From Limnobacter sp. SAORIC-580 (GTDB lineage Bacteria; Pseudomonadota; Gammaproteobacteria; Burkholderiales; Burkholderiaceae_B), in contig NZ_CP053084.1 in assembly GCF_013004065.1 (NCBI RefSeq), positions 1,426,001-1,490,000 of the forward strand: a stretch of DNA of 64,000 nucleotides, given 5' to 3'. Under the pieces are notes generated by a model, which worked only from the letters and a program-made list of their open reading frames with translations, was not told the origin of the DNA and searched no databases. Both the position numbers and the translations under genes were made by a program. This document shows positions 27,563-31,645 of this stretch, piece by piece (the first letter of the stretch is position 1; every line of letters begins with the position of its first letter).

Positions 27563-27727
27563 ATGAGCGCATTTTACACCGCAACTGGAGTCAGCCTGTA
27601 CTCAAGCCTGTGCTGATTTAGAGATTTTGCTTCGCCCAGCCTTCCAAATTTAGAAAAAATCCAACACGAGTTGGGAGTTAATCAATAAATACGCCATGAA
27701 ATCAACCGTTTGAAATTTGCATGGTCC

Positions 27728-27743
27728 TGGCATGCACACTGCA
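27728..27743 (+). promoter_or_regulatory. Candidate sigma-54 promoter ahead of ECF sigma gene
   Basis: TGGCAT-N5-CTGCA matches the -24/-12 consensus TGGCAC-N5-TTGCW with the invariant GG-N10-GC exactly spaced. It predicts a start near 27754, about 30 bases before the sigma gene ATG. The adjacent gene for a sigma-54 activator makes this match meaningful. Confidence 0.6.
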
Positions 27744-27782
27744 CAACGCTTGTTACCACACACAAGCAAACAGAGGCAGGTC

Positions 27783-28388
27783 ATGGAACACACCGCAAAC
27801 GTTCAGCAGTTCGAAATCACCGTTTCAGGTATTGACGAAAACACAGCAACACCGCTGACCGCGGCACAACTTTGCACGCTTGAGGCCTTGTTGAAGTCGC
27901 AGCAATCGCGTTTAACCCACTTCGTGCGCAAACACCTGCGCCGTGAGGATTATGTGGATGACCTTATTCAGCAAACCCACCTGGCTGCATTTCGCAACTG
28001 GGCGAGTTTTCGTGGAGAGTCCAAACCAGAAACCTGGTTGTTTGGCATTGCACTGAATCTGGTGAAAAACTTTCGTTACCGCGACACCAGTTTTCGCTTT
28101 CAAGGCGATGATTTTGATGAGCAAATCAGCCTGATTCCTGCCGATTCCATGTGCGAGCCTGAAGAATCCCTGATGCGTCAGGAGCGCATGGAAACCCTCA
28201 AGTCTGCAATTGATCACCTTCCGGGCAAAATGCAAACAGTGGTTCAGTTGGTGTTGCTTGAGGGGTTTACCTATCAGGATGCTGCACTTGAACTGGACTT
28301 GCCCATTGGTACGGTTCGCTCTCGATTGTCGCGCGCACGGGACATGCTGCGGGTGGAGGTGATGGGGCAGTCAGAATCACAACATTGA
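27783..28388 (+). CDS. ECF-type RNA polymerase sigma factor (HrpL-like role proposed)
   Basis: A 201-residue sigma-70 family factor with only regions 2 and 4. ATG 27783 has GAGGCAGG upstream; the frame to 27717 runs into the promoter. Region 2 is FVRKHLRREDYVDDLIQQTH and WLFGIALNLVKNF; region 4 is LPGKMQTVVQLVLLEGFTYQDA with the helix-turn-helix IGTVRSRLSRAR. No anti-sigma gene follows. It is preceded by a sigma-54-type promoter and followed by an HrpS-like activator gene, an arrangement reminiscent of control of hrpL in type III secretion. It is clearly paralogous to the second factor at 30847-31422 (both share WLFGIALN and IPIGTVRSR-like segments). Confidence 0.85.
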   Translation: MEHTANVQQFEITVSGIDENTATPLTAAQLCTLEALLKSQQSRLTHFVRKHLRREDYVDDLIQQTHLAAFRNWASFRGESKPETWLFGIALNLVKNFRYRDTSFRFQGDDFDEQISLIPADSMCEPEESLMRQERMETLKSAIDHLPGKMQTVVQLVLLEGFTYQDAALELDLPIGTVRSRLSRARDMLRVEVMGQSESQH

Positions 28389-28467
28389 CTAATCCCAAGG
28401 GGTGATCCAATGCTGGCACGCAGCCCTCACAATGAACTTTATTCATTTCATTGTGCCGTGGCTGCAA

Positions 28468-29799
28468 ATGACCGAGTTAACCCTTTGCATTGAATCCCCC
28501 GAACTCAAAAGCAGATTGCGTGCCGCAGCGTTGTTGATGCAGGCCAGTGTTCACGAACTGTCACTGATCGACCTGTTGGGCAAACGCAGTTTGCCCGCGC
28601 ATTGGCTGCTGGTTGATCAGGGCCTGGAGCAGCTTGGGGATTTAATTGAGCACTTCAAAGCCCAGGGTAGAAAGCCTGAAACACAGATCATTCGTTTTAT
28701 CGAGAAACCCTGGCAAGAGTACGTTTATCATGACATTCCCATTTTTGCGTCCATTGTGCACCCGGCCAATCCTTTGGCTGCAGTTCATGTACTTGAAAAG
28801 CTGATACGAACCAAACCTTTTCGTTCTGGTAAAAAGCCACTGCCCAACAGCAACCTGGGGCCCTACAGTGACGAATTTGTTCGTTCGCAACCCATGCGCC
28901 ATGCGGTATCCCAATTACAGCGCTTAAAACAGCTGCCCATCGACACCGTGTTGCTTGGGCCTACGGGTGCTGGCAAAGACACCGCTGCGCGTTGGCTGCA
29001 CGCGCACTCTGGCGTGAAAGGCGAGTTTGTACATGTGAACTGTGCTGCCTTGCCAGAGCAGCTTTTTGAAGCCGAGGTGTTTGGCGTGATGGCAGGTGCT
29101 TTCACCGGGGCGCAAAAAGACAGGCCAGGAAAATTGGAGCTTGCGCACAATGGCACCCTGTACCTGGATGAAATAGACAGCCTGCCTTTGTCATGTCAAG
29201 CCAAGTTACTGAATGCCCTGCAATATCGCGGCGCAATCCGGCTGGGTGGGCATGTGTTCTACAACTCGGTTTTTCGGGTCATCGCTTCGACAAAAACCAA
29301 ACTTGAAACCTTGGTGGAACAGAACAGATTTCGGGAAGACCTTCACTTCAGGCTCAGTGTGTCGCAGGTTCGAATTCCTGCCTTGGCAGAGCGACTCGAA
29401 GACATCATTCCCCTGTACTGTCATTTCCTGAACGATGTGGCCGCGCAGTTCAAGCTGGAAGTTCCCAAGCTGGACCTTGAAGATACGGACGAGTTGTTGA
29501 GCCGACCATGGCCTGGCAATGTGCGCGAGTTACACGCATTTGCACAACGGCATGTGATGGGGCTGGGCGAACCTTGCACGGTGCCTGGCAGCGAAGCACC
29601 TGCCGGTTTGAAGCAGCGTTTGCTGGCTTTCGAAAAAGCCGTTCTGATTCAAACATTGCATGCACACCGCGGGTGCGCACGCCTGGCCAGTGAAAGCCTT
29701 GGTATTCCCTTGCATTCCCTTTACTACCGCATGAAACGTTTCGATTTGCTTGAAAAAAACGGGAACCATTCCGATGACAAAGCCACTCAATGTTCATGA
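28468..29799 (+). CDS. Sigma-54-dependent activator, HrpS-like
   Basis: An AAA+ activator of 443 residues from ATG 28468 (ATG 28432 and GTG 28402 are in-frame options; none has a strong ribosome site). The first 125 residues may be a degenerate receiver-like domain. The AAA+ core has Walker A GPTGAGKDTAARWLH (164 onward), an intact GAFTGA loop (210-215) that contacts sigma-54, Walker B GTLYLDEIDSLPLS, FREDLHFRL and WPGNVRELHAFAQRHVMG. The GKDT Walker A variant and the end (GLKQRLLAFEKAVLIQTL, then a Fis-type helix-turn-helix) resemble HrpS of plant-pathogen type III secretion. It probably activates the promoter at 27728. Confidence 0.85.
   Translation: MTELTLCIESPELKSRLRAAALLMQASVHELSLIDLLGKRSLPAHWLLVDQGLEQLGDLIEHFKAQGRKPETQIIRFIEKPWQEYVYHDIPIFASIVHPANPLAAVHVLEKLIRTKPFRSGKKPLPNSNLGPYSDEFVRSQPMRHAVSQLQRLKQLPIDTVLLGPTGAGKDTAARWLHAHSGVKGEFVHVNCAALPEQLFEAEVFGVMAGAFTGAQKDRPGKLELAHNGTLYLDEIDSLPLSCQAKLLNALQYRGAIRLGGHVFYNSVFRVIASTKTKLETLVEQNRFREDLHFRLSVSQVRIPALAERLEDIIPLYCHFLNDVAAQFKLEVPKLDLEDTDELLSRPWPGNVRELHAFAQRHVMGLGEPCTVPGSEAPAGLKQRLLAFEKAVLIQTLHAHRGCARLASESLGIPLHSLYYRMKRFDLLEKNGNHSDDKATQCS
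29762..29789 (+). promoter_or_regulatory. hrp box-like promoter, full consensus match
   Basis: GGAACC (29762-29767), 15 bases, then CCACTCA (29783-29789) fits the hrp box GGAACC-N15/16-CCACNNA recognised by HrpL-type sigma factors. It lies at the 3' end of the activator gene, 48 bases before the ATG of the small ORF at 29838, the right distance for a promoter of that ORF. Confidence 0.65.
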
Positions 29800-29837
29800 A
29801 ACGACGTTTATCGGCCTCGTGCCTGTAATTATCACCA

Positions 29838-30056
29838 ATGATCAAACCAAACACTTCGCCAATACAGTCTGCGTCTTCACAAGCAAGCAGTGCAGCCAAC
29901 CCAACTGGTTCTGCTGCGCGCACCACCTTCAAAGCCATTCTCTCTGAACTCAAAGCTCGCCCGATGAAACCTCTTTCTCTGCAGCGCTTCCCGGGCCTTT
30001 CTACACCCCGTACGCTCGCACAACAAGTTCACAGCGACACCGCTGGTGTTGTCTAG
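29838..30056 (+). CDS. Small unknown protein, candidate hrp-box-driven product
   Basis: A 72-residue ORF starting at the first ATG after an in-frame stop; no good ribosome site is visible. The N-terminal 30 residues are Ser/Ala/Thr/Pro/Asn-rich with almost no charge (NTSPIQSASSQASSAANPTG), a composition typical of type III secretion signals; the rest is basic (FKAILSELKARP). No membrane helix or Sec signal. A full hrp box match lies just upstream, and a CesT-like chaperone gene is nearby. A role as secreted substrate or structural subunit is a hypothesis. It overlaps another frame (29750-29947) that looks less gene-like. Confidence 0.5.
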   Translation: MIKPNTSPIQSASSQASSAANPTGSAARTTFKAILSELKARPMKPLSLQRFPGLSTPRTLAQQVHSDTAGVV

Positions 30057-30071
30057 GCATTCACAAATCCC

Positions 30072-30410
30072 ATGTTACAAAGCCCTCCCGGAAACTGGTT
30101 TTTGATTAACGAGCAACTTGTTGAAGGTTTGGGGCAGGCTGAATTATTGCAGTCGTGGTCGTGTCCCTCCGAGTTTCAGGCCACCCTGGTGTTAAACAGC
30201 TATGAAAGTAACTGCTTGCGAGATTGGCTGTCGCAGCGTTGGCTTGCTAAGTCTCTGGAGCAAACCTGTATTTTTGAGCTTGAATATTCCAAGCTGCATG
30301 TTTCCAGGTTGATGTTTGCCAACAATGTGCTGGATGCAAAAGAGAAATTCGAGTTGTGGCTTCAGGCTGTTTTAGCCGACCGGACCAAGGCTGCACAAAG
30401 CCGAGGCTGA
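30072..30410 (+). CDS. Unknown protein, 112 residues
   Basis: Not recognised. The ORF begins 15 bases after the small ORF, without a clear ribosome site. It is acidic to neutral, rich in Leu and Trp (WLSQRW, FELWLQAVLAD), with no signal peptide, membrane helix or known motif. The helical C-terminal half (LMFANNVLDAKEKF onwards) could support protein contact, as in small secretion chaperones, but there is no signature to claim that. It is likely co-transcribed with the small ORF from the hrp-box-like promoter and converges with the CesT-like gene 5 bases away. Confidence 0.5.
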   Translation: MLQSPPGNWFLINEQLVEGLGQAELLQSWSCPSEFQATLVLNSYESNCLRDWLSQRWLAKSLEQTCIFELEYSKLHVSRLMFANNVLDAKEKFELWLQAVLADRTKAAQSRG

Positions 30411-30415
30411 TCGCC

Positions 30416-30847
30416 CTAGGTTGAGCCTTTGTGCTGAAAGTAGGTTTGTTTGTAGGCAAACGCCACATGAACAAAGCCTTGAAATTGCGACATGATTATG
30501 TCTTTGCTTTCACTCACAATTTCAACACACAGGCGCAAGCAGTTGTCGTGGTTTGAAATTGCGGTTGACACACCTTCGGGCATGTCGTTTTTCAATTCAC
30601 TAAACAGGGCCAAGGCCAGTTTAATTTGGTTTTCCTGAACCTGTAACGATTTCCCCAAGCTGAAAATTCTTGCGCTTACCCTGCAATCTGCGCCGCCAAG
30701 GTGTTGCAGCTCAATCGTGAAGTTCTTTTCAAAATCAATTCGATAGCCATCTTCACCGGCACATTGCTCGGTGTCGCTGAGAGTCATTCCCAGTGATTCC
30801 AGAATTTTGTTGAGTGCCCCATAACGGGTTGCCAAATTTGCGTTCAT
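30416..30847 (-). CDS. CesT-like type III secretion chaperone (putative)
   Basis: A 143-residue acidic protein with the layout of CesT-family chaperones: an N-terminal helix (YGALNKILESLGMTL), a strand block with DGYRIDFEKNFTIELQHL, then a helix (QIKLALALFSEL), strands (CLRLCVEIVSES) and a C-terminal helix with FVHVAFAYKQTYF. CesT chaperones bind the N-termini of secreted effectors and sometimes regulators. Its ATG overlaps the stop of the preceding ECF sigma gene by one base (TGATG), so the two are made in a fixed ratio. The identification rests on pattern and length only. Confidence 0.5.
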   Translation of the reverse strand: MNANLATRYGALNKILESLGMTLSDTEQCAGEDGYRIDFEKNFTIELQHLGGADCRVSARIFSLGKSLQVQENQIKLALALFSELKNDMPEGVSTAISNHDNCLRLCVEIVSESKDIIMSQFQGFVHVAFAYKQTYFQHKGST

Positions 30848-31422
30848 CAGTCCATATACAGGTCGTAGATTGATTTCAATTGGGCACGCGATCTTGAAAT
30901 TCTCGAACGCACCGTGCCAATTGGAATACCCAGAATGTCAGCCGCTTCCTGGTAAGAATTGCCATGCTGAACCACCAAAACCAGGGTTTCACGCAGATCG
31001 TTGGGCAAATTACCAATCGCCGATTCCAGTTTGATGCTGAATTCGTTTTTCATGCAATGCTGCATGGGGTCAGACCCCTCCGCTTGTTCCAGTTCAAGGT
31101 CTTCATCCGAAGTGAAATGAAATTTGTACTGTGGAGAGCGGCGCGCGGTGTTCCGAATAATGTTCAGTGCAATGCCAAACAGCCAGGTCGCTCTTTTTGC
31201 ATCACCTCGAAAGCTGTCCCAGCAGCAGTAAGCCTCAATCAAGGTTTGCTGGAATACATCCTCGACCGCGTTTTCATCACGAAAATGTTTGATGATGAAG
31301 TTGCGCAACCGCTTTTCCTGCTTGGCAACCAACAATTCAAACTCCGAGCGAGTTGTTTCCAGATTCGCCCTTGAGCACCTTTGAATCGCGGTGATCTTTA
31401 ACTTGGGGGCAATCGGTTTCAT
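30847..31422 (-). CDS. Second ECF-type RNA polymerase sigma factor
   Basis: A 191-residue sigma-70 family protein from ATG 31422, chosen because AGAGG is 6 bases upstream; ATG 31458 is an in-frame alternative. Region 2: LRNFIIKHFRDENAVEDVFQQ and WLFGIALNIIRN; region 4: LPNDLRETLVLVVQHGNSYQEA with IGTVRSRISRSR. It is paralogous to the factor at 27783. Translation is coupled to the CesT-like gene, and a hrp-box-like sequence lies about 195 bases upstream. No anti-sigma gene is adjacent; the chaperone-like partner could take that place, which is speculation. Confidence 0.82.
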   Translation of the reverse strand: MKPIAPKLKITAIQRCSRANLETTRSEFELLVAKQEKRLRNFIIKHFRDENAVEDVFQQTLIEAYCCWDSFRGDAKRATWLFGIALNIIRNTARRSPQYKFHFTSDEDLELEQAEGSDPMQHCMKNEFSIKLESAIGNLPNDLRETLVLVVQHGNSYQEAADILGIPIGTVRSRISRSRAQLKSIYDLYMD

Positions 31423-31616
31423 GTCGAGCCTCTCTACTTGAAACGGAAGTGGAATCATGGTCGGCCTTGGCGAGTTGTTTAAATAACGCCACAGCGTATC
31501 AAGGCTGCAAAAAGTCCGAACGAGGTGTCACCATGGATAGGGGGTGGGGTGACATGCTGCTTTATTAGCCTTGAAAATTGTGCTAACCACGCGGAACAAA
31601 TTTCCTATCTTGGTCA

Positions 31617-31645
31617 TGAGTGCTGGCACAGCCGCAGATGGTTCC
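31617..31645 (-). promoter_or_regulatory. Second hrp box-like element
   Basis: On the minus strand GGAACC (31645-31640), 16 bases, then GCACTCA (31623-31617) matches GGAACC-N15/16-CCACNNA with one mismatch. It points towards the second ECF sigma gene. The implied leader of about 190 bases is long, so it is weaker than the element at 29762. Confidence 0.4.

Follow-up and report, generated by a model that had tools for sequence, protein, structure and literature searches.

The stretch of DNA analysed here (the window; 64,000 nucleotides, positions 1426001-1490000) belongs to the genome of Limnobacter sp. SAORIC-580, a single contig of 3,297,222 bases (NZ_CP053084.1). At 27728-31645 of the window lies a locus with two extracytoplasmic function (ECF) sigma factor genes, a sigma-54 activator gene, two small open reading frames (ORFs) and a gene for a protein with a predicted type III secretion (T3S) chaperone fold. 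The layout comprises a sigma-54 promoter ahead of the first sigma factor gene (ECF1) and the activator, an hrp-box-like site ahead of the two small ORFs, and a second such site ahead of the other sigma factor gene (ECF2) and the chaperone-fold gene. Among 16 genomes of the genus, our own included, the gene order is kept in all 13 relatives with a full-length locus: upstream gene, ECF1, activator, small ORFs, chaperone-fold gene, ECF2 and a last gene that we take to be parE; the upstream gene looks TRAP-transporter-like by eye. The locus is a real, conserved regulatory unit, syntenic in the genus, and the hrp-type boxes that link the two make it probable, in our view, that this unit controls a non-flagellar type III secretion system (T3SS) encoded more than 1.2 Mb away.

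The ECF1-activator operon begins behind a putative −24/−12 promoter of the form GG-N10-GC, TGGCATGCACACTGCA (27728-27743, plus strand), and a matching element stands in 15 of 15 aligned loci (14 from Limnobacter and one from an outgroup genome, G027 in our labelling). A possible integration host factor (IHF) site (AATCAACCGTTTG, WATCAANNNNTTR-like) lies upstream at 27700-27712 (plus strand); it was read by eye in the alignment against the IHF consensus, and several relatives deviate. ECF1 (201 amino acids; 27783-28388, plus strand) matches Pfam Sigma70_r2 and r4_2 over the cut-off and occupies the same position in our genome and the 13 relatives with a full-length locus. The activator ORF follows (28402-29799, plus strand). 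Its product carries the Walker A motif GPTGAGKDT, GAFTGA and a C-terminal Fis-type helix-turn-helix, and matches Sigma54_activat (PF00158, 172.9 bits) and HTH_8; with an AAA+ domain containing Walker A and GAFTGA it belongs to the bacterial enhancer-binding proteins. A previous sequence-only reading of this DNA had described an ECF gene behind GG-N10-GC followed by an activator with intact GAFTGA and a GKDT Walker A, and this description is accurate throughout.

The activator was found in 14 of the 16 genus genomes, and its relatives come from named Limnobacter genomes including MED105, L. parvus and L. alexandrii. The two genomes without it are G002 (85% complete) and G010 (65% complete); one contig of G010 begins inside the activator's last residues. 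The motif is GAFTGA in 13 of 15 activators and GAYTGA in the remaining 2. As the homology of 8 of 14 relatives does not begin until residue 18-23 (residue 1-7 for the other 6), the true start may be the ATG at 28468, which would give a protein of 443 amino acids. Some 138-160 residues stand before the AAA+ domain, and this N-terminal part has no Pfam match. To our knowledge, HrpR and HrpS have no N-terminal regulatory domain, and the Limnobacter activator departs from them in this respect; the HrpS-like label of the sequence-only reading is therefore not retained. Among the best 25 NCBIfam matches for each ECF factor, only the superfamily model exceeds its cut-off. Because the activator architecture differs and these matches do not assign an ECF group (that of HrpL being ECF32), we do not file the locus as HrpL or HrpS.

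ECF2 (203 amino acids; 30847-31458, minus strand) carries Pfam Sigma70 domains and is about 40% identical to ECF1. Its identity is 94-100% in 10 of 14 genus relatives and 74-78% in the other 4. The start of the gene for a 143-aa protein (30416-30847, minus strand) overlaps the ECF2 stop by one base, and 15 of the 16 genus genomes have this protein, as against 0 of 44 genomes from elsewhere. Structure prediction and structural matching assign the class I T3S-chaperone fold (alpha-beta3-alpha-beta2-alpha) to the 143-aa protein and to an unlinked 153-aa protein described below. Family profiles did not follow the fold: the 143-aa protein has no Pfam match at E ≤ 1, to CesT (PF05932) or any other model, three 153-aa homologues have none at E ≤ 5, the PF05932 matches of our genome fall elsewhere and below the cut-off, and neither Pfam nor NCBIfam assigns a family to the 143-aa protein. 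Of the proposal that a second ECF gene is coupled to a CesT-like chaperone, the ECF identity, the coupling and a predicted CesT fold thus stand and the CesT family match does not; profile searches, suggested earlier as a check, confirmed both ECF factors and the activator. That the 143-aa and 153-aa proteins are instead regulators of the YbjN/AmyR kind, which share the chaperone fold and never bind T3SS substrates, we regard as doubtful. Their top structural matches are the T3S chaperones ExsC, SicP, SigE and CesT, though by narrow margins, which for the 153-aa protein amount to no more than about 1 Z unit.

Both small ORFs named in the sequence-only reading are present. The first, orf72 (29838-30056, plus strand), encodes a small protein with a Ser/Ala/Thr-rich N-terminus, no NCBIfam family and no Pfam match over the cut-off; it is recognisable by tblastn in 10 of the 13 relatives with a full-length locus, and an ORF of 60-103 amino acids occupies its place in all 14 loci listed. 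The second, orf112 (30072-30410, plus strand), encodes a small protein with no Pfam or NCBIfam match over the cut-off and has a homologue in 14 of 14 genus relatives examined, weak in G004.

The two hrp-box-like ECF promoters of the locus, a full box (GGAACC-N15-CCACTCA) and a near-match in the sequence-only reading, are found where it placed them. Site A, GGAACC-N15-CCACTCAAT (29762-29791, plus strand), overlaps the 3′ end of the activator gene and precedes orf72-orf112. Site B, GGAACC-N16-GCACTCA (31617-31645, minus strand), lies upstream of ECF2 with a long leader. A box 3′ of the activator is present in 14 of 14 Limnobacter loci examined, with TGAACT in place of GGAACC in G001, and its displacement relative to the gene in G014, G004 and G015 counts against coding constraint. 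At site B, GGAACC and CAC are each kept in 14 of 14 loci, and the spacer otherwise diverges in the alignment (G002 and G010 are left out of both box alignments). By count alone the pattern is not above chance, with 1 in the 64-kb window against 0.69 expected in shuffles; the significance of the elements comes from their conservation across loci (15/15 for the sigma-54 element, 14/14 for box A, 14/14 for box B), the relatives being non-independent samples.

Genome-wide, a scan for the exact box returned 4 sites in our genome (0 in the reversed control) and 53 in the 16 genomes (22 in the reversed control). Three of the four own-genome sites are A, B and a third, site C, which precedes the unlinked 153-aa gene; the fourth (C1:2354320) lies inside a gene and is probably a chance match. 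Site C is exact in 9 of the 16 genus genomes, at one same place, and in these sequences, taken only where the match is exact, both box halves are intact and the spacer diverges.

The sequence-only reading had described a circuit without a visible secretion system and suggested a type III-like system encoded elsewhere. The former is correct for the window and not for the genome, which encodes a T3SS; the latter is borne out, and promoters in the T3SS island carry the same kind of box. The genome holds two FHIPEP genes, one of which (170151-172112) leads a set encoding the T3SS ATPase, SctQ-, SctR-, SctT-, SctU-, SctL- and SctJ-type proteins, a secretin and an SseC-type translocator, with an SctD-like match below the cut-off. 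We therefore rejected the possibility that the genome has no type III genes, and the combination named earlier as fatal to the proposal (no type III genes, no further boxes, and activator and chaperone in unrelated families) is not what was found. A non-flagellar sctV is present in 14 of the 16 genus genomes, at 44-99% identity, and a T3SS in Limnobacter sp. MED105 is already mentioned in print, in the available part of that source (PMC2702493).

To examine the promoters of the T3SS, we trained a matrix on 35 site A, B and C sequences, all outside the T3SS, and applied it to 512,795 bases of sequence surrounding the T3SS in 14 genomes; a hit of at least 16 bits counted as promoter-placed if its end lay 10-120 nt upstream of an ORF in the same orientation. 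This yielded five promoter-placed hits, compared with a mean of 0.1 and a maximum of 2 for 300 column-permuted matrices, none of which reached five; by this test, hrp-type boxes stand before T3SS operons. Three of the hits precede sctV (G002, G003 and G007), one precedes an sctI-like gene (G007) and one a ZorA-like gene (G000). The same matrix gave no promoter-placed hits, even at 13 bits or more, in the T3SS regions of four genomes of other genera (147,000 bases).

A looser pattern, applied post hoc and supplemented by eye, places a box-like element before sctV in 13 of the 14 genomes (6 GGAAC, 7 TGAAC or CGAAC), G011 being the sole genome without one. GGAAC-type elements also stand before the sctI-like gene (4 of 6 homologues), itself located ahead of sctJ, and before the ZorA-like gene (8 of 10). 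Across the T3SS regions the loose pattern, again post hoc, occurs upstream of 25 of 430 ORFs, compared with 2 for the reversed and 5 for the permuted pattern; the Limnobacter control loci were chosen for holding box hits, and their 13/226 is no background rate. The sctV and sctI boxes of our own genome were recognised once the pattern had been loosened in the light of the relatives; the matrix is a test built from independent sites. Because matching switch sites precede T3SS genes in the same genome, the circuit probably runs the distant T3SS, and control of this unlinked system by the locus is supported at the level of sequence.

Several results weigh against this conclusion, and the first group concerns the boxes themselves. 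If hits are counted regardless of position, the matrix shows a modest excess (19 hits against 6.5), and 8 of the 300 permuted matrices reach 19. A relaxed box, GGAACC-N14-18-CACNNA, shows no genome-wide excess (39 against 85 reversed), and we discarded this count as evidence. In our own genome the box of the ZorA-like gene scores 21.7 bits, and those of sctI (8.0 bits) and sctV (7.4 bits) are weak, far below the scores of sites A, B and C. The loose pattern also occurs in T3SS regions of other genera, upstream of 5 of 127 ORFs (4 of them in G030) compared with 1 reversed and 0 permuted, and therefore does not single out this circuit. Many ECF groups share GGAAC −35 elements. Another ECF factor of the genome might then read the T3SS boxes, the two ECF factors of the window forming a separate, self-contained regulon that merely shares the −35 element. 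We think this rather unlikely: both box halves and the spacing are common to the two sets, the matrix from sites A, B and C selects T3SS promoters above its permuted versions and none in other genera, the T3SS regions retrieved showed no homologue of ECF1, ECF2 or the activator (E ≤ 0.01) and hence no local ECF factor of this kind, and the linked proteins have T3S-chaperone folds.

The second group concerns genomes in which locus and T3SS part company. G005 and G015 have no non-flagellar sctV yet keep the locus. The 93% complete assembly of G015 yielded neither a non-flagellar sctV nor a T3SS-type sctN, and the search for its metH was also negative. G005 retains sctU, sctT and a shortened sctN beside metH, a T3SS remnant from which we rejected the idea that this genome never had the system, and which we infer reflects a recent loss; it also keeps the 153-aa gene with its box. 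The outgroup G027 has a single ECF gene and an activator adjoining parE, the same downstream gene, yet no box at site A, and its locus showed no chaperone-fold gene, orf72 or orf112. Such a distribution would suit a regulon that is core to the genus and has a purpose independent of the T3SS, such as one linked to flagellar export or envelope state, and into which the T3SS was wired later and in part. This alternative is possible, if doubtful to us, given the T3S-chaperone folds of both modelled box-linked proteins and the box-like elements (loose and post hoc) before sctV in 13 of the 14 T3SS-bearing genomes. G027 came into consideration as an outgroup that might carry a T3SS; its sctV-like gene on contig C18 sits among flagellar-looking genes by eye, and a second sctV-like gene, on C42, is 32% identical. 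In G005, the partial T3SS (G005:C27:29510-32779, L162) adjoins an acyl-CoA-dehydrogenase-like block that is rearranged relative to our genome, and the island may be in decay or mis-assembled.

Returning to control of the T3SS by the locus, we infer the box reader, the direction of the cascade and the feedback from what was computed, namely the genes, promoter elements, conservation, predicted folds and box enrichment. Sigma-54 RNA polymerase, driven by the activator, would transcribe ECF1 and the activator, a step read from the promoter sequence, and the activator may thereby sustain its own expression in a positive loop. ECF1, and then ECF2 from its own box, would direct polymerase to GGAAC[CT]-N15/16-CACNNA boxes, as box conservation and enrichment suggest; either ECF factor could be the reader. 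The putative targets are ECF2 with its chaperone-fold partner, orf72-orf112 and the unlinked 153-aa chaperone-fold gene, and in the T3SS sctV, the sctI-like gene ahead of sctJ and the ZorAB-like pair. By their fold, the gene coupling, and the Bordetella and ExsC/ExsE precedents, the chaperone-fold proteins are probable binding partners of a secreted regulator or of other T3SS substrates, and ECF activity could in this way respond to secretion. A more elaborate proposal makes this a third type of T3SS control run by ECF factors, in an aquatic, free-living genus: the sigma-54/activator loop would set off ECF1, ECF2 would provide amplification by way of its own hrp-type box, the chaperone-fold partner and orf72 would report secretion to the sigma factor, and the ZorAB-like pair would be co-regulated as a possible energy or sensing part; we advance it as speculation that is unlikely to hold in full.

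In Pseudomonas syringae, HrpRS act on the sigma-54 promoter of hrpL (PMC8999054, as far as the available text goes), and T3SS genes carry boxes given as GgAACc-N16-17-CCAN in the accessible part of a further report (PMC4149516). The Limnobacter circuit resembles this arrangement in having an ECF gene behind a sigma-54 promoter (15 of 15 loci) and boxes before T3SS genes. It differs in its two ECF factors, the activator inside the ECF operon, the additional N-terminal domain of the activator, the chaperone-fold gene coupled to ECF2, the separate box of ECF2 and the distance between locus and T3SS. The betaproteobacterium Herbaspirillum rubrisubalbicans has hrpL and similar boxes before T3SS operons, and the HrpL-promoter consensus printed for it, GGAACC-N15-CCACTCAAT, is identical to box A (PMC3487950). 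According to that report, the T3SS cluster there has hrpL at one of its ends, with no sigma-54 promoter identified ahead of the gene. H. rubrisubalbicans is plant-associated.

The chaperone link has a parallel in the BtrS/BtrA/BtcB system of Bordetella, where the ECF factor BtrS activates T3SS genes and is linked to a CesT-family chaperone; according to the accessible parts of these accounts, btrS is switched on by BvgA and a secreted anti-sigma factor is known (PMC10732220, PMC7498569). None has been identified in Limnobacter, where orf72 is a candidate by position and composition. The ExsC/ExsE system of Pseudomonas aeruginosa differs in acting on ExsA, an AraC-type protein and not an ECF factor, with the anti-activator ExsD, as the available text describes (PMC7303211); sequence identity in that comparison is 8-18%. 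Limnobacter would thus combine the sigma-54 start of P. syringae, the box of P. syringae and Herbaspirillum and a Bordetella-like chaperone link with two ECF factors and an unlinked locus.

Previous examples are HrpL-type T3SS control in plant-associated bacteria and the ECF factor of Bordetella, and the same promoter logic now appears in an aquatic, free-living genus, where it has no linkage to the secretion genes. We know of no report of Limnobacter, an aquatic genus, as a pathogen. Among the titles and abstract openings that our searches of the open literature listed, no account of T3SS regulation in Limnobacter was found. The regulatory locus is kept as core while the T3SS varies and is sometimes lost or decayed, which offers a tractable case for the wiring of a secretion island to a core regulator, supplies a list of box-linked genes and raises the testable question of what Limnobacter injects into.

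A number of minor observations accompany these results. The first two genes of the minus-strand T3SS set in our genome form the ZorAB/MotAB-like proton-channel pair (L005:8888-9913 and L005:8094-8891, both minus strand; C1:193888-194913 and C1:193094-193891); the A gene has homologues in 10 of the 14 non-flagellar T3SS islands and the B gene in 9. The first gene matches NCBIfam ZorA1 with E 2.8e-63 and 214.5 bits, below the curated cut-off of 750, and the second matches ZorB1 with E 8.4e-95 and 316.8 bits, below that of 400. Plasmid searches with ECF1 and ECF2 returned generic sigma factors among the best 30 of 877 and 12 of 1089 records; among the ECF1 matches listed, two on Pantoea agglomerans plasmids might be HrpL, unconfirmed. 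In the T3SS region of G030, another genus of the family, a stretch (G030:C1:175880-176610, L154) holds box-like sites, one of them 30 nt before a small gene; the T3SS sequence retrieved from this genome gave neither a homologue of ECF1 or ECF2 (E ≤ 0.01) nor a match to the matrix. A box-like string in our genome (C1:1542704-1542731, minus strand, L142) was rejected as weak, since its spacer is also conserved and an ORF call overlaps it; the string recurs in at least 8 genus genomes beside genes that resemble a type I secretion operon by eye, and coding constraint is possible. In the long leader of ECF2 (window 31459-31600, minus strand), another conserved block, TTGATACGCTGTGGCGTTATT, lies close to the start codon and may act as an additional promoter or a regulatory leader. 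A further box, GGAACTTTGACAGCTTTGAGTCCACTCA (L115:5102-5129; C1:2683101-2683128 in our genome), lies about 60 nt before an ORF whose product has a polar, Pro/Gln-rich N-terminus that by eye resembles that of a secreted T3SS protein.

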